Shown piece by piece: positions 4,948 to 50,330 of a stretch of 51,441 nt of DNA. Under the pieces are notes generated by a model. That model saw only the letters and a list, made by a program, of their open reading frames with translations. It was not told the origin of the DNA and made no database searches. This DNA comes from a virus. Positions within the stretch are counted from its first letter, which is position 1; the number at the start of each line of letters is the position of its first letter. A program made the position numbers and the translations under genes. The stretch is from IMG/VR virus record IMGVR_UViG_3300030399_000020, positions 1 to 51,441 of that record; one strand, given 5' to 3'.

Positions 4948-6579
4948 ATGGCGACTCAATGGTCAGTAATAGCAAATCGAAAAGATAAGCGCGGGCAGGT
5001 TGCTCGGACAGAATACCGCATTGATGCCGTAACTGCGGGCGGCTGTCCAGCGCAGGCTGGCGCTCTCGTTTTGCTCGATTCTTGTGGGAAAATTGACTCG
5101 TCGCTCCTACCTCCTATCCCATCATCTTCATGCTGCATCGAGCTTGAAGTCAACGGCGTCAAAGTACCCGACCAGAACACCGCCAATTTCATAGCCCAGA
5201 ACAACATCGAAATCACCTACGACAACGCAGGTGGGATTTACTTCAATGTCACGGGCACACCATCGTCTTGTGCGGAGTACCTCTGTACGCCAAGCGGCTG
5301 CCCCATCGACGTTGGTCTCAGTGCTCCAACTCACCCGGGCATGATGCTGATTTCACAGCCCGGTAACTGCTCGGCGATCTGGGCCGATCCACAGGTACAA
5401 GGTCTCTATCCCGCTGGCAGCCCGATCTGCCCTGCGCCCGCGTATGTCGCCCCAACTTGCATCCAGCCTATCGGTATCGGCATACAGGACGCGAACGGCG
5501 ACCTTCAATGGTTGCAAGGAAGCTTCGCAGGCAGCCCCGCCGTATTCGCGCTCGACGTAAACGTCGTCAACCCCCTGACGGTGACGTTCTCCGAGTCTTC
5601 GATCTGCGTCACTCAATGCACCACACCATGGGTTGTGAGTGGGGCGGTCTCCGTAACCGGAACCGTCGTCGTCACCAACACAGGGACATTTGCCGTACAG
5701 GATGCGGCAGCCGAGGCTTCCCTCGCCACGCTTGCCGCCGACCTCGCCTCTGTCATCGGCTTGTACGGTTCCCCTGCGGTTCCTGTGCTTCAAGTCGAGG
5801 TGGTCAATCAGACCAGCGGCACCTCTTGTGTAACACAGTGCACGTCGCCTTGGGTCGTAAACGATCCGATTGCCAACGCTTATTTGGCGGAACTCGTAGC
5901 CGCTCTTACCTTTGTGGGCTCACCAGCCGTACCCGCCATCAACGTCAACGTTGCGAGCGGCGATGTTACAGTCTCAGAAACCTACAACGCTATTCCGCCC
6001 TCACCGCCGAACGGTTCCACTCTTCCGCTGCAATCCGACAGCGCGGGCAGCCTGTACGTAGACCCCACGGGGCGTATCCCGACCTACCATGGGACTGAGA
6101 GCGCCTTCGCACCGCTTGCCAATGCCACTACTCCTTTCTTCACGATTCAGGGAAGTGCGACAAAAGTTATAAGGGTTCGCCGAGTCCAGATCACTTGGGC
6201 TTGCACAACGGGCAACTCGGCACTCAACTTAATTCGCTTCCGCCGCTTTTCAGCTATTAGTGGAGGGGCGTTTAACGCTATAACGCCAGTACCCGACGAT
6301 ACTCTCAACCCCGCTGCAACCGTTGCTATCAGTCAGTACACGACGTTGCCCACGGTTGCCACAGCTTTCAACCTCGGCTCCATCGAGTCGCAATACATGC
6401 AGTGGACGACAAACACTTCGTCCTTAGTTGGGCCTCCTGCCATTGTGTGGGAGTTCGGCACCGATGGCGGGCAAGCGGCAACGCTGCGTGGCGTTAACGA
6501 CTGGTTTGGAATTGAAATCTCGGCTGTCGCGGCTGCTGGTGCGCTGATGACAATCAAAGTTATGTGGACAGAGGAATAA
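4948..6579 (+). CDS. Repetitive fibre-like protein (543 aa)
   Basis: Begins 12 bases after the previous stop. Residues about 200-345 contain repeated CVTQCTxPWVV and V-x-V-x-G-T units also found in the 758- and 1257-residue proteins. Residues about 374-543 form a C-terminal domain (GR-x-PTY start, GSATKVIRVRRV core, ending WTEE) that is clearly related to the C-terminus of the 1257-residue protein. A conserved C-terminal domain after variable repeats suggests a trimeric fibre with a common cap or attachment end; this is inference. No enzymatic motif seen. Confidence 0.65.
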   Translation: MATQWSVIANRKDKRGQVARTEYRIDAVTAGGCPAQAGALVLLDSCGKIDSSLLPPIPSSSCCIELEVNGVKVPDQNTANFIAQNNIEITYDNAGGIYFNVTGTPSSCAEYLCTPSGCPIDVGLSAPTHPGMMLISQPGNCSAIWADPQVQGLYPAGSPICPAPAYVAPTCIQPIGIGIQDANGDLQWLQGSFAGSPAVFALDVNVVNPLTVTFSESSICVTQCTTPWVVSGAVSVTGTVVVTNTGTFAVQDAAAEASLATLAADLASVIGLYGSPAVPVLQVEVVNQTSGTSCVTQCTSPWVVNDPIANAYLAELVAALTFVGSPAVPAINVNVASGDVTVSETYNAIPPSPPNGSTLPLQSDSAGSLYVDPTGRIPTYHGTESAFAPLANATTPFFTIQGSATKVIRVRRVQITWACTTGNSALNLIRFRRFSAISGGAFNAITPVPDDTLNPAATVAISQYTTLPTVATAFNLGSIESQYMQWTTNTSSLVGPPAIVWEFGTDGGQAATLRGVNDWFGIEISAVAAAGALMTIKVMWTEE

Positions 6580-9761: not shown

Positions 9762-10055
9762 ATGAATCTCGCGCTTTTAGCCGAACTCGGCGTTGCCTGT
9801 GGAGCGATCAGTTTGGTCGTCGCCGAGGGGAAGATTTTCGCCAAACCCCACGACTGGTTGGCACCGAAATTCCCATTTTTAGACCAATTATTGTCCTGCT
9901 CATGGTGCGTCAGCCATTGGGTATCGGCGATGCTCGTGCTGGCGTACTACAAGGCAATCGGCGGGGGTTTCATCGATCACATCGTGCAAGGCTTTATCGT
10001 TATTGCGATCTCTCAAGTCGTAGCGGGCATCATGAGAAAGTGCATCGAACACTAA
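9762..10055 (+). CDS. Small membrane protein, DUF1360-like (97 aa)
   Basis: Hydrophobic segments at about residues 5-22, 50-66 and 70-90. The central LLSCSWCVSHWVSAML with C-x-x-C next to a membrane segment resembles the DUF1360 family of phage and sporulation-associated membrane proteins (usual pattern L-x-C-x-W-C-x-x-x-W). Starts in the leaderless position of its promoter and ends in a TAATG junction with the glycosyltransferase gene. A holin-like role is possible but not shown. Confidence 0.55.
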   Translation: MNLALLAELGVACGAISLVVAEGKIFAKPHDWLAPKFPFLDQLLSCSWCVSHWVSAMLVLAYYKAIGGGFIDHIVQGFIVIAISQVVAGIMRKCIEH

Positions 10056-10702
10056 TGCCCCCCCTCGTAAGTGCGCTGACACCGACCTTTAACCGCCGAG
10101 CTTTCTTCCCTCGGGCTATCCAGTGCTTCCTCGCACAAGATTACCCGAATCTGGAGTGGATCATACTGGACGATGGTGCGGACCCAATCGGCAGTCTTTT
10201 GCCGACCGATCCGAGGATCAAATATTACCATGAAAAGCCCAAAAAACACCATGGGGCGAAGATGAACCGCTGCTTTGAGTTATCGAGTGGCGAGTTCGGG
10301 ATTGTCTTCGATGATGATGATTGGTATCCGGCGAATCGAATCACCCGCCAGATCACGCCGCTCATCGAGAGGCCCGCGTTAGACCTCTCGGGAACGAGCA
10401 CTCTTTACTACTATCAGCACGGCACCCAAACAGCCTATCAGTACACGACTCCGAAAGGAATCGGTTGGCTCGCGTCCATAGCGGTACGCAAATCCGCTTG
10501 GGAGAAATTAAAGTTCGACAACATGGCGGGAGGAGCGGACTACAATTTTCAAAAGAAGACGCCTGTTTCAGCTAGGCTTGATCTGAACGACCCCGCCTTG
10601 GTTGTGGCGGCGATCCATCCGGCTAATGCGTGCAGAAAACATCTGAGCAAGGATTACAAACCTGAATCGTGGGAGACAATTCAAAGACTATGGCAAAAGT
10701 AA
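10055..10702 (+). CDS. GT2-family glycosyltransferase (215 aa)
   Basis: N-terminus has the GT-A nucleotide-sugar fold pattern (SALTPTFNRRAFFPRAIQCF, DYPNLEWIILDDGA) and the metal-binding acidic cluster FDDDDWYP near residue 87, followed by a GGAD motif near residue 165. It would transfer a sugar from a nucleotide donor. Encoded inside the fibre gene block, coupled by TAATG to a membrane protein, so it may decorate virion proteins or host surface glycans; which one cannot be told from sequence. A longer upstream frame (from 9032) is a read-through of the fibre gene in another phase and is rejected. Confidence 0.8.
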   Translation: MPPLVSALTPTFNRRAFFPRAIQCFLAQDYPNLEWIILDDGADPIGSLLPTDPRIKYYHEKPKKHHGAKMNRCFELSSGEFGIVFDDDDWYPANRITRQITPLIERPALDLSGTSTLYYYQHGTQTAYQYTTPKGIGWLASIAVRKSAWEKLKFDNMAGGADYNFQKKTPVSARLDLNDPALVVAAIHPANACRKHLSKDYKPESWETIQRLWQK

Positions 10703-27530: not shown

Positions 27531-28352
27531 TTACAGTCCCTTTGATGCCAAAAACACGTGGCTTACGAAGCCAGCGACGTAGCCAGCGATGAACCAGTGG
27601 CGCTTGGACTTGTTGAACTTGTCCGTCATCACTTTCTTCTCTTCGACACACTGGGCTTCATGATCGGTATCCAGTTTTGTCGCCCCTGTAACCGCCGTAT
27701 TGAGCGTGGCTACTTGGGTGCCGAGATCGAAGATGTTCTTGTTCTGCTGGACGATCAATAGATCGTCGTTCGTCTTCAACGTGGTCTCGTTGGCAAGCTG
27801 CGCCGTCAGGACGGGGACCTTCTCCAACTGCTGAACCGTTGCGAGAGCGTTTGACGGGGTTACCGTGACGTTGTTGCCCGAACCAATCGCTCCTGTGAAA
27901 TTCGTGCCGGGGGCAAGCTGTGCCCAACGGTCAACGAGTGCGGGAACGGGAAGCGTAGCGTCCGTGTGCTGTTGTTTCGTCAGAGCGGTCGCCAGTGCGG
28001 TGTTTGCCGCCACAAGCTGCTGGTTCTGAGCGGTTACCTTATCGGTGAGCGCCTGAAGTGCCAGCTTATCCTGTGCCGCCTGAGCCGCGTCCTTCTGGGC
28101 CTGAGCCGCGATAGCTGCGTTCTGTTGTACCTGTGCGGCGACAACGAGCTTCTGTTGCTGTAGGGCGGCACTGTCATGATCGAGGCGAATCTGGGCGTAC
28201 TTGCCGTAGCCCCACCACAATGTGATGGCAAGGATGACGACGATGAGAAGCTTTTCGTGGTCGAGCAGGAAGGAACGAATCTTGCCGATTTCCCCGCCGT
28301 GTACTGGGCTTACCGCTTTTGGGGCTGCACTAGATGTTGTCTGGTCTGACAT
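27531..28352 (-). CDS. Membrane-anchored coiled-coil protein, spanin-like layout (273 aa)
   Basis: One N-terminal membrane helix (residues about 33-52, LLIVVILAITLWWGYG), then a long Ala/Gln/Lys-rich region (QQQKLVVAAQVQQNAAIAAQAQ) with heptad-like spacing, a globular middle and a second hydrophobic stretch near the end (WFIAGYVAGFVSHVFLA). This layout is seen in i-spanins and other envelope-spanning phage proteins, but no small lipoprotein partner gene is nested here. The start overlaps the 3' end of the HNH/AP2 gene by 23 bases. Confidence 0.45.
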   Translation of the reverse strand: MSDQTTSSAAPKAVSPVHGGEIGKIRSFLLDHEKLLIVVILAITLWWGYGKYAQIRLDHDSAALQQQKLVVAAQVQQNAAIAAQAQKDAAQAAQDKLALQALTDKVTAQNQQLVAANTALATALTKQQHTDATLPVPALVDRWAQLAPGTNFTGAIGSGNNVTVTPSNALATVQQLEKVPVLTAQLANETTLKTNDDLLIVQQNKNIFDLGTQVATLNTAVTGATKLDTDHEAQCVEEKKVMTDKFNKSKRHWFIAGYVAGFVSHVFLASKGL

Positions 28353-28842
28353 ATCGATAACTCTCCCCTTGCACAGTTAATGGACAAAGTTGAAAATTCG
28401 TGCAAGCAAATTCTCGATCCAGCACACGCGAAATCGCATCGTACTCAACAGCGGCTCGAAGCTCACTATTCCAGTAGCTCACCCGTGCTTTACCGCTGCG
28501 ACTAATACGCGACATCCACTTCTTGGAGTGTTTGTGCCATTGCACTCCCTTAAACTTGCTGCGACCATTTCGATTTTTTCGACGGTTCGCCTGATTCTGT
28601 GCTGCGGTACAGGCTCGAAGATTTAACTTCTGACAATCAAGCCCGTTTTGGTTACGGTGATCTACTAGCACCGCTGGATCGGCCACATCTAACACCAGTC
28701 GATGCAGCTTCACCACAGCCACGGCATACGCCGTCTTCTTCCGCTTATGAATGGACACCCGCCAATTGAATCTGGACAGGCGTTCGTAGTCTTCATCATC
28801 CACTAACGCGGAATATCCTCCGTTGAGCTTGATTTCTCTCAT
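28330..28842 (-). CDS. HNH/AP2-type homing endonuclease, leaderless (170 aa)
   Basis: Residues about 60-90 hold the HNH-3-type core (KLHRLVLDVADPAVLVDHRNQNGLDCQKLNLR...NQANRR), with H-N-H-like ligands; the C-terminal half (RSKFKGVQWHKHSKKWMSRI, LRAAVEYDAISRVLDREFA) matches an AP2-type DNA-binding domain. This combination is typical of phage-borne homing endonucleases. Its own GTATTAC element five bases before ATG suggests it is transcribed independently. It ends inside the start of the next gene. Confidence 0.85.
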   Translation of the reverse strand: MREIKLNGGYSALVDDEDYERLSRFNWRVSIHKRKKTAYAVAVVKLHRLVLDVADPAVLVDHRNQNGLDCQKLNLRACTAAQNQANRRKNRNGRSKFKGVQWHKHSKKWMSRISRSGKARVSYWNSELRAAVEYDAISRVLDREFACTNFQLCPLTVQGESYRYVRPDNI

Positions 28843-29339: not shown

Positions 29340-30662
29340 TTACTTCGTTGCCCTTTCCTTAAACCGAACGCAGGTGCATGGGCCTGAGTAATTCTTGGCG
29401 ACCCACGAATGAATCTTGTGGTTGCTGGTCCCACCGCACCGTCCCCAAGAGCCCTTGGACGTGACCTTGTGCTCTGACCGCGTGTGGTAGCAGGTGTTGC
29501 ATGTATCGGTGCCCAGCTTCTTGCGCTTCTTCGGGCCTCGGGTCTTTTTTTCGACGACCTTGACTTCAGTCGCGGCGACCTCTTTGATGTCCTTGCCTTT
29601 ACGGGCCTCTTTCGAACGCCCGTCTTTGCAGACTTCTTGGGTTAATACTGGGATTTTGCACTCAGTATCCAATTTAGCGATCTGATTGGCAGAAAACTTG
29701 AATTCCTTGCCGTGTTTGTGGATCACGTCACGGTAAGTGTTAAGCTCGGGGTCCTGTTTTTTGAAATAGTCCTTCATCAACCGATCCTTGATGATGCAGT
29801 AGATGATGAACAGGTTCTTCGGAGCCTTGATCTCCCCCGATTTGAGGTTTTGCATCACAACCTTAGCGATCTCAAGCGGGTTGTGCTTACCCTCAATCAG
29901 CACGAGCTTCTTGACCAGTGCGGTGACCGTGCGCTGGCGAGAATGGCGCTTGGGCTCCTCAGCCTTGGCTTGCTCTTCCAGAACTTCGACCGTGGGCATA
30001 GTCTCGTCTAGATGCAGGTCTTCCGCGATCAACGCCGACGCTATTTCTTCGCCCAGTTCATCGAATAACGCATCCACCATCGGGCCGAAGTAGTACACCC
30101 TTCGGTTCTCGGGGACATTGGGCAGGTTCAGGAGGTTGCGGATCGGGGTCTCTTGCAGGATGTACTTGGTGCGGAGGGTGATCCTGACCATCGCCGAACC
30201 GTCGCCGATGACCTCCACGACGCCGCAGAAGTCGCGGCATTCACCGTTCAGGATACGGACAAAGCTGCCAACCTCGATCCCGATAGCCCGCTGGCGATGC
30301 TCTTCTTCCGCCAGAGAGATAAGACTCTGCACGTAAGCGTCCTCTACGGAGATGGCCTTCGATGGGCGGTTACAATCGCCCTCGGTGACCAAGCCGCAGA
30401 TGCCTGTGATTTGTTTGAGCCGCAGGAGGGCGGGGAAGCTGGTGCTGCGAACGAACACGTACTGCACCGTGCCCAATTCGAAAACATCGAGATCACGCTT
30501 TTGGACAGGGATGAAGACTTCGAGAGGCTCATCACGAAAGATGCCCCCGACTTCTCTCCCCAGCCGCTTCATAGTGGGCTCGACGGTCTTGTCTGACCTA
30601 AGTTCCGCCATGTACCACTTTGTGTTTTTGAGCTTTTCGGTTGGGCCGTATTCGAGAACCAT
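29340..30662 (-). CDS. NusG-like transcription elongation factor, large form (440 aa)
   Basis: Residues about 14-115 resemble a NusG N-terminal (NGN) domain: KWYMAELRSDKTVEPTMKR start, PVQKRDLDV, VQYVFVRS, GICGLVTEG. Residues about 130-182 match a KOW domain: GSFVRILNGECRDFCGVVEVIG then a run ending ETPIRNLLNLP. After a charged region comes an extra domain and a C-terminal zinc-finger-like stretch (CNTC...CGG...C-x-C; about residues 385-432). Ordinary NusG is about 180 residues, so this is a long paralogue. NusG-family proteins bind RNA polymerase and change pausing or termination; host or phage transcripts could be targets. Its own TATTAG element lies five bases before ATG. Confidence 0.7.
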   Translation of the reverse strand: MVLEYGPTEKLKNTKWYMAELRSDKTVEPTMKRLGREVGGIFRDEPLEVFIPVQKRDLDVFELGTVQYVFVRSTSFPALLRLKQITGICGLVTEGDCNRPSKAISVEDAYVQSLISLAEEEHRQRAIGIEVGSFVRILNGECRDFCGVVEVIGDGSAMVRITLRTKYILQETPIRNLLNLPNVPENRRVYYFGPMVDALFDELGEEIASALIAEDLHLDETMPTVEVLEEQAKAEEPKRHSRQRTVTALVKKLVLIEGKHNPLEIAKVVMQNLKSGEIKAPKNLFIIYCIIKDRLMKDYFKKQDPELNTYRDVIHKHGKEFKFSANQIAKLDTECKIPVLTQEVCKDGRSKEARKGKDIKEVAATEVKVVEKKTRGPKKRKKLGTDTCNTCYHTRSEHKVTSKGSWGRCGGTSNHKIHSWVAKNYSGPCTCVRFKERATK

Positions 30663-30750
30663 GAAGGCTAATACTAGATATAGGGTAAAAATACTCTATA
30701 AACTGAAAATTATTTCCCTAGATATAGGTAAAAGTGGTATGATGGTCATG
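30663..30750. promoter_or_regulatory. Divergent promoters with a direct repeat (operator candidate)
   Basis: Leftward: CTAGTATTAG at 30675-30668, five bases before ATG 30662 of the NusG-like gene. Rightward: GGTATGAT at 30736-30743, just before ATG 30751. Between them the direct repeat CTAGATATAGG(G)TAAAA occurs at 30674-30690 and 30718-30733, repeat starts 44 bases apart (about four helical turns), each overlapping or flanking a promoter. A DNA-binding regulator could bind both copies; AT-rich composition differs from flanking DNA. Confidence 0.65.
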
Positions 30751-30975
30751 ATGCCACGAAAAAGGTACAAAAAGCCACCGACTCGAATCCATCTGGTGCG
30801 GTTCTTGCACCTTCTCTTGGAAGAGTGTGTGCCCGCACGGATAGAGGAACTGGTGAAACGTGTGGAGGGGGGAGAAACTGGAGAATCGGGACGTGCGTGG
30901 GAGATTGCCAACCGCCTTATGAAACCGACACCCGGACAAGAACGGGCAGCGGCAGGAGCGAGGGCAGCGATATGA
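30751..30975 (+). CDS. Small basic protein, possible regulator (74 aa)
   Basis: Starts at ATG 30751 (or 30748), seven (or four) bases after TATGAT, so probably leaderless. Basic N-terminus (MPRKRYKKPPTR) and two helices. Overlaps the next gene by four bases (ATGA). Being divergent from the NusG-like gene with direct repeats in between, it could be an autoregulatory DNA-binding protein; no helix-turn-helix is clear. Confidence 0.5.
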   Translation: MPRKRYKKPPTRIHLVRFLHLLLEECVPARIEELVKRVEGGETGESGRAWEIANRLMKPTPGQERAAAGARAAI

Positions 30976-31397
30976 GAGTTGTCTATTTGGTGGGGAACAA
31001 ACCGGAGAGGAAGTACAAAATCGGGGTGACCACCGACATCAATCAGCGGCTTCGGGGGCTATCTACAGCTTCCCCCATAAAAATCGAACTCATTACAGTG
31101 TGGTTTTACGAAGGATATCGAAAGCTGGAGAAATATCTCCACACCCAATTCCACGCCAACCGTCTGAACGGGGAGTGGTTTCAACTGTCGGAGGAAGACA
31201 TCAGCCGTTGCAACAATCTAGCGGTAAGGTACATGGCCGCGAACCCCATCGAGAAGCAAAAAGAAAAGTCTCGCCAAAAACGAATTGACAAGGCAGTCGG
31301 GGTGGTCGTCCTCGCTAAACTCAAAGCCCACCGAGCGAAATTACTGGCTGAAATCGAGCAGGTTAAGGGTGAGATCGCCGAAATTACCACCGCATAA
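30972..31397 (+). CDS. GIY-YIG-family nuclease (T5orf172/MUG113 type) (141 aa)
   Basis: Residues 1-80 match the T5orf172/MUG113 variant of GIY-YIG: VVYLVGNKPERKYKIGVTTDINQRLRGLSTASP, then EGYRKLEKYLHTQFHANRLNGEWFQL, which holds conserved Tyr, Gly, Arg, Glu and the GEWF signature. The C-terminal 50 residues are a charged coiled coil. Members of this family are phage or mobile-element proteins; nuclease activity is expected, but a regulatory DNA-binding role has been suggested for some. ATGA overlap with the preceding gene. Confidence 0.75.
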   Translation: MRVVYLVGNKPERKYKIGVTTDINQRLRGLSTASPIKIELITVWFYEGYRKLEKYLHTQFHANRLNGEWFQLSEEDISRCNNLAVRYMAANPIEKQKEKSRQKRIDKAVGVVVLAKLKAHRAKLLAEIEQVKGEIAEITTA

Positions 31398-31604: not shown

Positions 31605-32987
31605 TTACATCGGATCGTCTTCGTACCCATCAGCATCGCCAGACGGCACAAAGACGTGCCGTTCGGCGGCTATGGGTTCATCCTCCGTCTCCTCGACTGG
31701 AATACCTGCGGCGGCGACCTCTTCCATATCTTTCACCAGACCGTCCAGCATAACCTCGGGCTCATCGCTGAGGAACTCCGCGACTTCCTGAGCCGCCACG
31801 ACGCTGCCGACTATCTCGGCGGGCTTGGCTGGGGGGATGTCTTCCACGGCTACGCCCTCAGGCGGTGCGACCAGCAAAAGCTCCTTGATTGTACCCATGG
31901 TGCTGCCAAATGCCCCGCCCTGCGCTTTCTGAGCCCGTACACGAGCCTTCCTCTCGGATGGGGTGCCGTGGAGCTTCAGAAGCTCGAACGCTACCAGAGG
32001 CATGATATTGGACGGCAGGTTGGGCGTGGTAGCCCATTTGATGAACAGGGCGGTGACATCGCCCGTTTCCGGCAGGCCCACGAAAATCGGTAGGATGCTG
32101 GGGTCAGTCTCGGCGAAAACCGCCCTGCCGTAGACCGAGAACATCATCTCAATTACCTTGGCTGGGCGGGCCTTCCTGCCCGCTTCGTCCGCCAGTTTGA
32201 TCGCCGCTGCTTGGTCCTTCGCCGCAATAGCCAGCATCAGCTTGACGCACACGTCTTCGAGGCTCGTATCGAGAATGACCTTGACGTGCTCGGTGCTCAC
32301 CAACCCGAGGGCGGCAGCCGAACCAAGAACGTTGACGGCATCCCTGATGATCCCTTTGGCTTGACGGGCGATCAGCCGCAAGGCGTCTAGCTCATAGGTT
32401 ATCTCGTTACGGTTGGCAACGTTCGCCAGCAGACCGACAATGGTATCGGGGTGGACTAACTCAAAAGGAATCTGGGTGCATCGACTGCGGATGGTGCCCG
32501 CGATACTGTCCGCCTTGTTGCTCACGAAGATGATGCTCGTGCAAAAGTTCCCCTGTTCCAGCGGCTTGAGAAACACGTCCCAAGCCTCGGAGCTAAGGCG
32601 ATGGGCCTCGTCGATCACGATGACCCGACGCTTGCTGTAATTGGGGGTTTGAGTGCCCCAAAGTTCCATGATCTCGCGAGCTTTGTCCACCCCCGAATAC
32701 AGGGCGGCGTCAATCTCCTTGAAGTCTGAATGGCTGTCGATTCCGCCCTCCGCTATCGTGAGGCAGGAATCACACTTGCCGCAACCCAACGGGTCTTTGC
32801 CTGTACACAAAAGAGCACGAGCCAACAAGTAGGACGTTGTGGTCTTCCCGACGCCAATGAAACCATAGAAAAGGAACCCTTTGAGCATTAGGTGCTTGTT
32901 GTTCAGGATGGCTTGGAGAACGGTGATCGCCCGTGGCTGTCCAACGACAGCGTTCCATTCAGACGGACGTTGGGCGATAAGGTTCAT
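31605..32987 (-). CDS. dnaX: DnaX-like clamp-loader ATPase (460 aa)
   Basis: N-terminal 240 residues are an AAA+ clamp-loader module: QRPSEWNAVVGQPRAITVL start, Walker A GFIGVGKTTTS (about residue 42), structural zinc site CGKCDSC, Walker B VIVIDEAH, sensor SRC motif GTIRSRC (arginine finger). Bacterial DnaX has a tau or gamma form; this one ends in an acidic tail (PSGDADGYEDDPM) instead of the tau C-terminus. It should load the sliding clamp on primed DNA. No delta or delta-prime gene is visible here. The TATCAT element five bases before ATG suggests leaderless transcription. Confidence 0.9.
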   Translation of the reverse strand: MNLIAQRPSEWNAVVGQPRAITVLQAILNNKHLMLKGFLFYGFIGVGKTTTSYLLARALLCTGKDPLGCGKCDSCLTIAEGGIDSHSDFKEIDAALYSGVDKAREIMELWGTQTPNYSKRRVIVIDEAHRLSSEAWDVFLKPLEQGNFCTSIIFVSNKADSIAGTIRSRCTQIPFELVHPDTIVGLLANVANRNEITYELDALRLIARQAKGIIRDAVNVLGSAAALGLVSTEHVKVILDTSLEDVCVKLMLAIAAKDQAAAIKLADEAGRKARPAKVIEMMFSVYGRAVFAETDPSILPIFVGLPETGDVTALFIKWATTPNLPSNIMPLVAFELLKLHGTPSERKARVRAQKAQGGAFGSTMGTIKELLLVAPPEGVAVEDIPPAKPAEIVGSVVAAQEVAEFLSDEPEVMLDGLVKDMEEVAAAGIPVEETEDEPIAAERHVFVPSGDADGYEDDPM

Positions 32988-45191: not shown

Positions 45192-48100
45192 TTAGATGGA
45201 TATGGAGGCAACGTTTGAAAAATTCGAAGTGCCGTCCAGTGAGAACGCTTGGACGCGGAAGTAGTACGTTGACCCCGGTGCCAACTGGACGGTGATGCTT
45301 TGAATCGTGCCCGAACCTACGACCTGAAGCAGGGAGAAATTGATCCCATCCACGGAATACTGGACATTGTAGGAGGCAACGAGGTCTGGACGCTGCTGCG
45401 ACCAACTGATGGTGAGTATCGTAGTGTTCTGCGCGTTGAGCGAGGCCAATACCGTGACGTTGGTTGGCGCGAGCGGGTAGCCAGTGTACGGGCTGTTGGG
45501 ATTGAACAAAATTTCACCCGTATTCACGAACTGGTTTATCAATTTGGGTGCGTTCCATGTACCAATGATGACCCCATTAGCCAAGCTGATGAGGGTTTCA
45601 AATGTCTGTCCATCGTTCGTAGCGGTCGCAGTGCCCGTATCTGAGACAGCCAGCGTAACTACACCGAGTGATGGACCTTCGCTTATCGCCGCCGCGTTGT
45701 TGAACGTTATGGTGGTAACTGTGGAGGCTGAGCAGAGGAACACACCGTTGTTCTGAGGGTTTGTAAACCCTGTAACGAGTGCCATGAACCCGAAATAAGC
45801 ATTGTTAGCACCGCCAGTGATCGTTCCTGTATAGACGGCGCTATCGCCCGCTGAGGCGGCAACCGAGGTCAAATTCAAGGGTATTCCCGGGGCTGGTGGT
45901 ACTGGGTCGCAGGCAGTCGCCGTGGGGTAGACAATGGACGCTTGGAACCACTGACTTGTAGCCACGATGATTTGAACGCTGAGACCGTTCAAAGGTGAAG
46001 CAATCGGCGGCGAACCACGAGGGATGAGCCCGCTCAAAATCACATTGTCGCCAACCTTGAAATTGTTGGCACAGACCACCGTCAGGGTGTTATCGGCAAT
46101 CTCAATGTCCGTGATCGCTGCCTGTGCATTCAAGATGCTGCCGATCAGGATTTGACCCGACCGTAGACTTTCGACGCCTGCTGTACGGATAAACTGTACG
46201 TTATTGGCTCCGTACAATTGGTTCGATTCCGTGCTGATCTCCATCGTTCCCGTCGTCTGCAAGGTATCGTTCGCAACCTGTAGAAGCAGAACGCCATCGG
46301 GTCCGCCGAACATTAAGACGCGCTGGTTGGCATAGCTGTAGGTGCAGAGAATACGATTGAACGTGAAATCGGAAATGCTCGGCAGGCTGATCGTTGTGTC
46401 GGGATTGTCCGTGTAAATGAAAGTGGCTGTGGTGTAACGGAACACATTACCAGCATCGTCGAGCACCAACGTGTAGTCGTCCTCAGTGTGAACGGCGTCT
46501 ATAATCTGTGTCTGGTTGGGGGTGAGCAACTTCCGCAACAGGACCATGGGATTCTGACTGCTCAAATAGATGCCGCCGTACACGAGCACGGAGTATGGCG
46601 AGATCACGATGTAGCGGTCAGTACCATCATTCACCGAGTTCCGTTTGATGGCTTGGAGATCGTTGTAGAGGATCGAGATGTCCACGTTCCCCCACGTCCC
46701 CGCCTGATTACGCTGAGAAATGTTGCCCGAGTAAACGGATCGCGACAATTGAAGGGTGTCGATGAAGCATGTGAAATTATACGCAGCGACAGCAATCGTG
46801 AATTGAACGGTGATGGGGAGATTAACACCGTCGTTCACCGTAACGTCAAATATGAGGCTCTCACCCTGTATAGCTACGCCATTCGTCAGGAACTTGAACG
46901 TCGGTAGATTGGCGGCACCGACAATGGTGACTGGGGTGCCCGCTACCTGCACCCACGAGTAGGTGACAACATCGTCTGGATCAGTGATGCCCGAATATTC
47001 CACGGGGAACTGCGTCGTGGGGTCGGTGATCGTTAGCGGTGTGATGGTGATCTGGGTGTTTCGAGCGACCGTCACGGGCTCCACGAGGATGTAGCTTGGC
47101 GGCAAGCCAACGGCTTCCCATGCTGGGGTTGGAAACACTATCTCGGGTGGTGCGTTGTACGGCACTTCTACTGTAATCACGGAAAACTGGAACTGCGGGA
47201 TCGCATAACCAGTCACACTGATAACGGGGATCGGTGGTGGGCCGCTCGCTGGCACCGTAATGGTCTCAGCGGTCGAGATAGTCACTGCACCAGTGTTGGC
47301 AAGCGCCCTGCCTTCCAATGTACCGCCGCCAAGGGTGATACTCGAAACGGCGAGGATGTTACCCACGGTAACAGCACCCGGCCCGATGGATGTCCAAGAA
47401 CTTCCAGCAAGCCAAACCACGTTCGCAGCTTGTGCGCCGTTCGCAAGAGTAATTGTTCCTGCGATAGCTTGCGTGATGGTGCTTGCCGTCGCATAAAACA
47501 CGAACAGGGCGTCAGAATCCCCTTGGGCATCGAGAATGATTGGTGTGTCGATGGCAAGCGATGAACCACTCACGTACACACCTGCGTAGTAGGTGCCTGT
47601 TGGTGCACCGCCGCCAGACTGGGTTCCCATGTCCGCTGTGAGAAGTGTCTGCGTGGGGGTCAAGTTTTCGTAGTAAGAGATTGCCGTAGCCAGATCGGTC
47701 TGGTTCTGAGCGGTTGCTGTCACATAGGCCGCAGGCGATACAAACGTTCCCGGTGGGAATCCTGAAACCGAGTTAGTCGCGTATGAGCCAATGTTACCGC
47801 CCGCGATCACCGTGTTGCCCGTGTTCGTGATACCTGAGTACGCGAGGATGGCATAGCCTGCTGCCGATGCCAATTCCGTAGTGACTGGAGACGGTGGTGC
47901 TGGAGGCGTCGGCGGCGATGGTGGGCTACCCGATATGTCGCAGAGCGGCACCGCCGTGAAAGTCGTAGATGTTGATGCAACCACGTACCATACTTGGTCG
48001 TTCAGCGGCATGGCACTCGCTATGCCACATGCATTTTCTCCGCAAACTGGTAGTAGAACGGACGGACTAACGTTCCAAACCATGACCTCTTCGCCTATCG

Positions 48101-50330
48101 CCAGCGGCAAGGTTGGAATATCAACTGGTGGAGTCCCAACTGGGGTGTTCGTCACCGTGAACTCAACCAGCGGAGGGCAGTTGTTCAGTATTCGATAGCC
48201 CGTTACATTAAAAGGCGGGTGACGCTGTGTGATGAGATCGGGGTAAAGGTCTACCGCCGCGACTCCCACATTGAAAGTGCTGCAAGCTCCACCAATGGCG
48301 GGGCTAACTGTGAGGACGGAAGTGTCGCTGGGCGTCCAAGCTCCGCTGGGAACCAACGTCACAAATCCAGTCGAATCGTTGTCCGACCACCAATACTCGA
48401 TGGCATCCTGATCTGGGTCTACGGTTCCTGCCGCACTCAACGTGATGGGCTGACCGTATACTGGGGCTCCAGTATTGCGGTACACAAGTATCGGCGAGCA
48501 CGGAGGTAGGGGCGGCTCCAACGCAACGATGGGCGGCACGTTGAACAGCGAGACATACACGGGCAGGACGGAGCCGACATAGGTGTAGCTAACCTGAACG
48601 CCTGCGCCTACGTCCGCCAAATTGAACACGTACCGCCCGTTGGTGGGCTCGACCTGATACTGTCCTTGTGCGGGCGCTGTTTGAACTTCGACCAACGGCG
48701 TGCCAGTCTGCGAATAGATAACCCCCACGTTTTCCCAGAAGTTGGTGAATGGGGTATCGGAGAAATGATTTACCTGCACCACGCCTGAAGCTGGGATCGT
48801 CTGTGCTTCGTTGGTAACCGAGATGAGTTTTGCCGCTTCGCCGACAAAAGCCCACGTGGATGCATTGTCGAGAAGCGAGTTTGTCCCACGAAGCCACGTG
48901 AAGACCTGTTGGTTGTACCACCCTGCGGTGTTCGAGAGACCGAGTGCGGGGGAGACAGTTGCCACGAGGAGCGGGTATGCGGGCGCTGTTCCCTGCGCTG
49001 GGAGCGGGGTCACTAGATTGAATGGCTCCAGCAAATAGGCCAAGCTCACGGTGCCGAACTGCGTAACCGACAGGACTGCTTGAACAATCGAGCCGTTGAG
49101 CGAGGTGCCGTAAACGGGGCTAAAGAGCCACGGATTCCCAGCTTGCAGCGTACCGAGCATCACGTTCCCGATGAGACCCTCGGGGGTGGTGCTTTGATTC
49201 CAGAATGACCAGTTCAAATAGCGATTGCCGAATGCGTCAGCAATGACCGTCAGGCTATCGTCGGCGTAGCGAGCCGTGAACCCAAAGAGATTGGTCGCGG
49301 GAGCATCCCATGTCCCGGCTATGCGCTCAATGAAATTGATCGTGAACAACTGATCTTTGAAGGTGTAAACCTTCGGGTGCGCCCCGTAGTAAAGCTCGAT
49401 GTTTATTCCATCTGGGGTGACTAAACTCACGGCACTGAATGTGCTGCCTGAGCGGTCGGGAGAAGATGCGACGATGTAGAGCGAGCCCGGGACGTAATTG
49501 TCGTTTGTGTCCAATTCGAAGGCGATCAGGTTTTCGCCGGAGTAGTACAAAGTCGCCAACGCTGTTGGTGATGTCTCAGCAGCGGAGTAGTCGGGGTAGT
49601 TCGTGGTGTATGCCGCAGTGAATCCCGTTTGCGTGGCGGGGGAACCGAACATAACCACGCTCAGAACTTGCACCGTCAAACCGTTGAGGAACGTATTTCC
49701 ACCACTCAACCCCGCCAAGGTAACCAATTGACCGACCGAGAATGCGTTGTTGGCCGTAACTGTCAGTGTGGTTTCGGCAGGCGTCCCTGCGGTCGCGATC
49801 TGTACGGACGTGATCGGGGCTTGGAACAGGGGCGGGACTTCAGCCCCAATCATCGTAGCATCAACAACTGACACAGCGACAATGCGATGCCCATTATCGA
49901 GCACCACCATATCATACCCATCGCGTACCGCCGAGGCGGATGTCAAGGTGATCGGCCCAGAGAGGGTCTGGGCATTCGTGTCAAAAGTAAATTTAATCAG
50001 GTCTGAGTAGCGAGGATTGATCGCGTTGTTTTGCGCCCCGATAATGTGAAGCAGACCCGAGTTCGGGTCGTAGGCGACGACGGGATCGAAACCGCTGTTC
50101 GGTAGCGGAGGAGAGCCGTGAAAAGGGAAGGTGTATGTCGCCACGACAGTGAACGACGCGCCGGGGCCCGGAGCGGGCGGTACGGGGTCTGACTTGAAGA
50201 TAGCAAAGGAATTGTCCTGACGCACGTTGCTGACGACATAAAGCGTACCGTCAGCGACCTGTATAAACTGAGCCCCCCCAGTCAAAAGCTCCTTAGACCA
50301 CGAGACTTGATGATCCAATTGGGTAATCAT
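45192..50330 (-). CDS. Giant modular adhesion protein with DUF3494 and fibronectin III domains (1712 aa)
   Basis: Domain order from sequence: N-terminal ~480 residues beta-rich with possible propeller-type repeats; residues about 170-235 a module also in the 329-aa protein; a PKD/cadherin-like unit (GQPITLSAAGTVDPDQDAIEYWWSDND) near residue 620; a DUF3494 ice-binding-like domain at about residues 815-1025; further Ig-like units; residues about 1400-1600 the shared two-module block with the 329-aa protein; C-terminal fibronectin type III domain (PLAPTNVTVLASL...ISWSQ..., residues about 1612-1712). It has no signal peptide or membrane segment. Best read as a virion-attached or secreted adhesin. 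ATGA overlap with the GIY-YIG gene. Confidence 0.75.
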   Translation of the reverse strand: MITQLDHQVSWSKELLTGGAQFIQVADGTLYVVSNVRQDNSFAIFKSDPVPPAPGPGASFTVVATYTFPFHGSPPLPNSGFDPVVAYDPNSGLLHIIGAQNNAINPRYSDLIKFTFDTNAQTLSGPITLTSASAVRDGYDMVVLDNGHRIVAVSVVDATMIGAEVPPLFQAPITSVQIATAGTPAETTLTVTANNAFSVGQLVTLAGLSGGNTFLNGLTVQVLSVVMFGSPATQTGFTAAYTTNYPDYSAAETSPTALATLYYSGENLIAFELDTNDNYVPGSLYIVASSPDRSGSTFSAVSLVTPDGINIELYYGAHPKVYTFKDQLFTINFIERIAGTWDAPATNLFGFTARYADDSLTVIADAFGNRYLNWSFWNQSTTPEGLIGNVMLGTLQAGNPWLFSPVYGTSLNGSIVQAVLSVTQFGTVSLAYLLEPFNLVTPLPAQGTAPAYPLLVATVSPALGLSNTAGWYNQQVFTWLRGTNSLLDNASTWAFVGEAAKLISVTNEAQTIPASGVVQVNHFSDTPFTNFWENVGVIYSQTGTPLVEVQTAPAQGQYQVEPTNGRYVFNLADVGAGVQVSYTYVGSVLPVYVSLFNVPPIVALEPPLPPCSPILVYRNTGAPVYGQPITLSAAGTVDPDQDAIEYWWSDNDSTGFVTLVPSGAWTPSDTSVLTVSPAIGGACSTFNVGVAAVDLYPDLITQRHPPFNVTGYRILNNCPPLVEFTVTNTPVGTPPVDIPTLPLAIGEEVMVWNVSPSVLLPVCGENACGIASAMPLNDQVWYVVASTSTTFTAVPLCDISGSPPSPPTPPAPPSPVTTELASAAGYAILAYSGITNTGNTVIAGGNIGSYATNSVSGFPPGTFVSPAAYVTATAQNQTDLATAISYYENLTPTQTLLTADMGTQSGGGAPTGTYYAGVYVSGSSLAIDTPIILDAQGDSDALFVFYATASTITQAIAGTITLANGAQAANVVWLAGSSWTSIGPGAVTVGNILAVSSITLGGGTLEGRALANTGAVTISTAETITVPASGPPPIPVISVTGYAIPQFQFSVITVEVPYNAPPEIVFPTPAWEAVGLPPSYILVEPVTVARNTQITITPLTITDPTTQFPVEYSGITDPDDVVTYSWVQVAGTPVTIVGAANLPTFKFLTNGVAIQGESLIFDVTVNDGVNLPITVQFTIAVAAYNFTCFIDTLQLSRSVYSGNISQRNQAGTWGNVDISILYNDLQAIKRNSVNDGTDRYIVISPYSVLVYGGIYLSSQNPMVLLRKLLTPNQTQIIDAVHTEDDYTLVLDDAGNVFRYTTATFIYTDNPDTTISLPSISDFTFNRILCTYSYANQRVLMFGGPDGVLLLQVANDTLQTTGTMEISTESNQLYGANNVQFIRTAGVESLRSGQILIGSILNAQAAITDIEIADNTLTVVCANNFKVGDNVILSGLIPRGSPPIASPLNGLSVQIIVATSQWFQASIVYPTATACDPVPPAPGIPLNLTSVAASAGDSAVYTGTITGGANNAYFGFMALVTGFTNPQNNGVFLCSASTVTTITFNNAAAISEGPSLGVVTLAVSDTGTATATNDGQTFETLISLANGVIIGTWNAPKLINQFVNTGEILFNPNSPYTGYPLAPTNVTVLASLNAQNTTILTISWSQQRPDLVASYNVQYSVDGINFSLLQVVGSGTIQSITVQLAPGSTYYFRVQAFSLDGTSNFSNVASISI

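Follow-up and report, generated by a model that had tools for sequence, protein, structure and literature searches.

The usual means of antitermination in phages are small unrelated proteins (N, Q, p7) or RNA (put). UpxY, LoaP, RfaH and ActX, like the phage protein described here, are divergent NusG-like proteins and are thought to serve particular operons. Such specialised NusG paralogues mostly have two domains and are associated with operons for polysaccharides, pili or other products (PMC7819879); the NusG protein of Thermotoga maritima carries an extra domain, DII (PMC7819879). Here, we analyse a NusG-like protein of 440 residues encoded by the 51-kb virus record IMGVR_UViG_3300030399_000020, which was studied over its whole length of 51,441 nucleotides (referred to as the window). 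A sequence-only reading of this DNA had described it as a phage protein more than twice as long as NusG, and its length is indeed 2.4 times that of Escherichia coli NusG (181 residues).

The gene and its relatives

The NusG-like gene, delimited from its open reading frame and from the family alignment of its relatives, occupies positions 29340–30662. These coordinates stand as previously read, with the orientation being that of the minus strand (30662→29340): the reading frame starts at an ATG at 30662, and the plus strand of the same interval is interrupted by stops.

Relatives were found at about 30 loci (designated by L numbers), nearly all of them on phage contigs of up to 463 kb; iterated searches of viral contigs with full-length queries yielded 23 loci, and the others were retrieved with the C-terminal domain as a query. 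The sole isolate in the set is the Tunturiibacter phage Tunturi_5, a 309-kb myovirus (jumbo phage) of Acidobacteriota, whose gp25 is 46% identical over residues 1–343 and was annotated by its depositors as a 'transcription antiterminator'. Tunturi_5 was also the only clear relative in a protein search of annotated phages; at the nucleotide level, nothing closely related turned up among phages. The main text of the paper that describes this phage mentions neither NusG nor antitermination nor transcription (PMC11924767). In the open-access literature, which we searched for NusG proteins encoded by phages, including jumbo phages, and for inteins in NusG, there was no account of the family. The phage origin proposed for the gene is borne out. 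The window itself derives from a large soil phage, probably one with an acidobacterial host.

Two relatives call for a comment. In bacterial genomes, the search returned a single short contig, binned as Geobacteraceae: this relative (L033, positions 5158–6060) lies on a 6-kb contig of a metagenome-assembled genome, and since its closest kin are the phage contigs L019–L024, it is probably a misbinned phage contig. The relative in L015 (8001–9136) is split over two or three frames by an apparent frameshift, either a mutation or a sequencing error, and was excluded from the tree.

A divergent member of the NusG/Spt5 superfamily

When the window protein was scanned as a single sequence, the Pfam NusG model gave an E-value of 0.042, under threshold, and TIGR00922 (nusG) gave 0.0054 with 16.6 bits, the curated cut-off of 135.7 bits not being reached. 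Because these matches are weak, the question was decided by relatives and structure. TIGR00922 is matched by 15 of the 18 members (best E-value 2.5e-7), all far under the curated cut-off. The UpxY antiterminator model (NF033644) is matched weakly by 13 members out of 18, with a best E-value of 8.8e-7; Tunturi_5 scores 19.9 bits, under the curated cut-off of 100 bits, and the setting does not place the family with UpxY either, the adjoining genes being replication genes. Finally, phrog_6386 ('transcription antiterminator') is matched by 13/18 members (best 3e-5), the window protein not being listed among them.

An AlphaFold model of the window protein, built from an 18-row alignment, displays both an NGN fold and a KOW barrel with pLDDT values of about 83–94, in agreement with the two domains that had been recognised from the sequence, and a structural comparison with NusG, proposed earlier as a check, points the same way. 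In Foldseek, NusG and Spt5 are the top PDB matches of the protein (E-value 6.5e-7). The NGN domain, presumed to be the RNA polymerase-binding part (residues ~12–127; positions 30282–30629, minus strand), superposes in VIA on the NGN domain of E. coli NusG bound to RNA polymerase (6c6u_N; Z 9.8, 2.3 Å, 96/98 residues); the KOW domain (residues ~128–182; 30117–30281, minus strand), which contains the motif VGSFVRILNGE...CG, matches the KOW-type barrel 3c4s_A (Z 10.1, 1.3 Å over 55 residues). Some VIA matches to NusG cover the NGN and KOW domains together. The window protein belongs to the NusG/Spt5 superfamily. On sequence grounds it is to be regarded as a divergent NusG paralogue and not an orthologue, because the scores lie far under the curated cut-off. 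The paralogy proposed earlier holds in this divergent sense, and the specific tie to RfaH, LoaP or ActX does not, the closest models being the generic nusG and UpxY ones, all of them weak.

The I-F-G-R stretch of the E. coli KOW domain, which we take to be the contact with S10 and Rho, is not conserved in the alignment of the phage family, so that coupling to the ribosome or to Rho may be lost or achieved otherwise. Loss of this loop may fit lost support of Rho, although it lends itself to no simple reading. Note that the model shows the KOW domain as a barrel, with no helical state, and is compatible with an RfaH-like switch all the same.

A conserved helical domain that hosts inteins

Most of the extra length of the protein consists of linkers and a compact domain of five helices (residues ~244–335; 29658–29933, minus strand), modelled with a pLDDT of about 90–96. 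This domain is present in all relatives of sufficient length and is fused to NGN–KOW in each further locus read. It has no Pfam family, no sequence relative in the PDB and no convincing PDB fold match in Foldseek or VIA, a weak match being no proof of a new fold. Several candidate identities were discarded: scattered weak matches to TCAD7, SRP54_N and HMG are attributable to chance, as is a ribosomal protein L21 match of residues 313–399 (E-value 0.014) that disappeared with a wider alignment, and an identity as a clamp-loader collar is unsupported (see below).

Compared with the homologous gene of L001, the helical domain displays 20 synonymous and no amino acid differences; over residues 244–440, 42 codons differ synonymously and no amino acid changes, and in the tail alone 16 nucleotides and no amino acids differ. 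The exclusively synonymous differences indicate that the helical domain and the tail are under purifying selection.

Inteins, recognised by LAGLIDADG features, interrupt the NusG-like protein in L009 (8001–10397), L010 (3847–6114), L011 (4737–7004) and L051 (from 2712). All are inserted at the same site of the helical domain, ...F-I-x-Y^C-(I/L), in three separate clades (L009, L010/L011 and L051), corresponding to three changes on the tree. Inteins tend toward conserved sites of important proteins, and the shared site suggests a conserved and functionally important position within the helical domain.

Clade-specific C-terminal tails

The Cys-rich, zinc-finger-like end of the protein had been noticed from the sequence, and its pattern, C-x2-C-x-H-x4-H...C...H-x-W...C-x-C-x-R-F, proved to be common to eight different family members. 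In the window it reads CNTCYHTRSEH...RC...HSW...PCTCVRF (29361–29501, minus strand), and its AlphaFold structure is of low confidence (low pLDDT). The Cys/His tail is limited to one clade of eight, having been gained once (a single change suffices on the tree, with support of 87/98). The sister clade (L044, L045/L046, L051) carries instead an AT-hook, PKRRGRPRK, followed by a basic helix, likewise gained once (one change, support 100/99), and the tails of the remaining members are short or basic. Judged from this distribution, the zinc-finger-like tail is a clade-specific add-on. This restriction, the helical domain, the inteins and the linkage to a clamp loader had gone unmentioned in the sequence-only reading.

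A conserved place among replication genes

Upstream of the NusG-like gene lies a gene for a clamp loader (DNA polymerase III gamma/tau-like AAA+; 31605–32987, minus strand), identified by Pfam and PHROG matches. It holds this position in 20 of the 25 loci, the window included. The two genes overlap, by 1–20 nt as read, in Tunturi_5 and in L019–L024; elsewhere a gap or an insert of up to 2.3 kb separates them. More generally, the order of the primase, exonuclease, loader and further replication genes is maintained around the NusG-like gene.

In the window, the interval is occupied by an inserted reading frame of the GIY-YIG type (30972–31397, plus strand; Pfam MUG113 5.5e-20, T5orf172 1.7e-12). 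Other phages carry different inserts there, and the interval is possibly an insertion hot spot. Downstream of the NusG-like gene, an HNH endonuclease reading frame (28330–28842, minus strand) starts behind the same GTATTA-N6-ATG arrangement as that described below.

Elsewhere in the window, a reading frame of 1712 codons (45192–50330, minus strand) contains an ice-binding-like domain (Pfam PF11999, E-value 9e-30) together with fn3 and PKD-like domains and ends in a PHROG minor-tail match; it is probably a phage structural protein with an ice-binding-like fold. ARAGORN called a tRNA-Phe with the unusual anticodon AAA at 10030–10125 (minus strand), possibly a false call.

A recurrent promoter-like motif

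No promoter emerged at the NusG-like gene when the sequence was scanned for the sigma-70 consensus. Comparison of the relatives brought out the element GTATTA, located 6 nt before the ATG (30669–30674, minus strand), whose promoter-like character is suggested by its recurrence in the window and in relatives. GTATTA is the most frequent hexamer at that distance ahead of window reading frames of at least 60 residues. The pattern GTATTA-N6-(A/G)TG occurs seven times in the window, against 0.22 expected and a maximum of two across 100 resampled sequences; the sites (9750+, 40850−, 39284−, 30674−, 28854−, 18809− and 17726−) are mostly devoid of a Shine–Dalgarno sequence. GTATTA is also found upstream of the relatives in L001 and L006, and variant forms in L005, L012, L016 and L038. 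Within the zinc-tail clade, in which inserts separate the two genes, the starts lack a Shine–Dalgarno sequence, and GTATTA or a variant lies 12–15 nt upstream of the ATG in seven of the eight members. From this spacing we infer that GTATTA could act as a −10-like element for transcripts that begin at the ATG or close to it and would thus be leaderless.

The motif supports the earlier suggestion that the gene stands behind its own promoter. The accompanying proposal of an operator fared less well as regards a conserved element: what is present is a 16-nt direct repeat, with one copy touching GTATTA (30674–30689, minus strand) and the other 44 bp away (30718–30733, minus strand), which was not found in the relatives, not even upstream of the 97% identical gene of L001. 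The repeat being confined to the window phage, an operator role is unproven. As a candidate phage-wide promoter element, CCTATATCTAG was discarded, its only exact copies being the two at the NusG-like gene.

Target polymerase and proposed function

If the NusG-like protein binds an RNA polymerase, the enzyme could be encoded by the phage or by the host. Pfam models PF00623 and PF00562 gave no match in ten phages, but PF00623 also missed the polymerases of phiKZ, so that this negative result says little, and the test was repeated with phrog_2986 and phrog_3148. These models match the phiKZ control with E-values of 1e-204 and 0 and have no match in the ten records, which include the complete Tunturi_5 genome, with the proviso that metagenomic records may be incomplete and that other or more divergent phage polymerases are possible. 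Given a working control and no phage polymerase found, host RNA polymerase is most likely the target of the factor. Sigma-70 region 2 was detected over cut-off in three of the ten records (Tunturi_5 and the phages of L005 and L012); in Tunturi_5 it is carried by gp211 (L002/L032; 151918–152616), annotated as a sigma factor. When 14 phage records were searched for nusG without bias, 12 of them gave a match, never more than one each and never over cut-off. Wherever coordinates could be compared, this match lay at the place of the NusG-like gene; a second NusG-like gene was not detected in these 14 records. An action on host polymerase elongation or against Rho, as put forward earlier, would be consistent with the lack of a phage polymerase, the sigma factors and the lack of a second NusG-like gene.

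We consider it fairly probable that the protein is a phage processivity or antitermination factor, a NusG paralogue acting on the host polymerase. According to this model, the NGN domain would sit on the β' clamp helices of host RNA polymerase after the phage (or host) sigma factor leaves, and the phage factor would replace host NusG on the elongation complex. The host polymerase would thereby become processive on phage operons, pausing less and resisting Rho-type termination. The KOW barrel, the helical domain and the tail, which is of a nucleic-acid-binding type, might recruit partners or hold the factor on phage templates.

Since the gene lies inside a replication cluster, a role in replication is possible. 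In such a scheme, NGN–KOW would bind polymerase and the helical domain would dock on the clamp loader of the phage or on its sliding clamp, coupling transcription to replication by a logic resembling that of T4 late transcription with other parts, or resolving conflicts between polymerase and replisome. The clamp-loader gene that precedes the NusG-like gene in most loci, overlapping it in some, and the maintained order of primase, exonuclease and loader speak for it, as do the polymerase-binding RpbA of T4, encoded beside the clamp gene, and weak matches between the helical domain and the RFC5 portion of clamp loaders (Foldseek E-value 4.6; VIA Z 2.0–2.5). These matches, however, are at noise level and RFC entries are abundant in the PDB, hhalign comparisons of the helical domain were negative with the neighbouring loader (probability 0.1%), T4 gp62 (probability 0.2%) and T4 RpbA, and gene order alone may mean co-expression; we therefore hold a replication-linked factor to be unlikely. 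That the helical domain itself ties the factor to the clamp loader or sliding clamp, making it a replication-coupled elongation factor, is an idea that rests on gene order and that we judge quite unlikely.

The factor could also compete with host NusG on the host polymerase and so uncouple or block host transcription. Phages often encode inhibitors of the host polymerase, and an NGN fold implies the same binding surface; yet a full NGN–KOW unit with a large conserved extra domain exceeds what an inhibitor needs, and the models that match the family are of the antiterminator type, which makes a shut-off factor very unlikely in our opinion. An RfaH-like recruitment of ribosomes to phage mRNAs, which would be important as this gene and others seem to be leaderless, would agree with the KOW barrel and with the starts lacking a Shine–Dalgarno sequence at GTATTA sites. 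Against it stand the S10-binding loop of E. coli NusG, which is not conserved, the failure to identify an ops-like element and the single, barrel state of the modelled KOW domain, and we give translation coupling hardly any credence. A processivity or antitermination factor acting on host polymerase is the reading that we favour.

Whatever its partners, a NusG paralogue has been retained across a broad group of large phages, including one that is in culture together with its host, and is enlarged by exchangeable tails and by a conserved domain whose fold was not recognised. It offers a testable system for phage takeover of elongation, beyond initiation, in Acidobacteriota, and makes a case for asking whether phage transcription couples to replication. 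If the replication-coupled reading were true, the family would represent a new way for a phage to couple the transcription of its genes with the synthesis of its DNA, unlike that of T4 gp33/gp55/gp45.

Comparison with known NusG-like proteins

NusG-like proteins of phages are already present in databases. Those with NGN/KOW-type matches, namely phrog_6386, the BFVD entries A0A6J5PZH6 and A0A6J5MAV8, and Gp272 of Bacillus phage G, have 146–211 residues and are too short to include the additional helical domain. Tunturi_5 gp25 shares with the window protein the helical domain and the adjacency to the clamp loader; unlike it, gp25 has 344 residues and no zinc tail. As far as the open-access literature shows, what is new is a three-domain architecture across large phages, with exchangeable tails, inteins and clamp-loader linkage.

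The order of folds, NGN then KOW, is that of bacterial NusG from E. coli and T. maritima. Compared to these proteins, the window protein is longer (440 residues versus 181 in E. coli), its NGN hairpin is shorter, the S10/Rho loop is not conserved, and a helical domain and a tail are added. The DII domain of T. maritima NusG is internal to the protein, whereas the extra domain of the phage family is C-terminal. Finally, the family differs from UpxY, LoaP, RfaH and ActX by its third domain, its tail and its linkage to a clamp loader.
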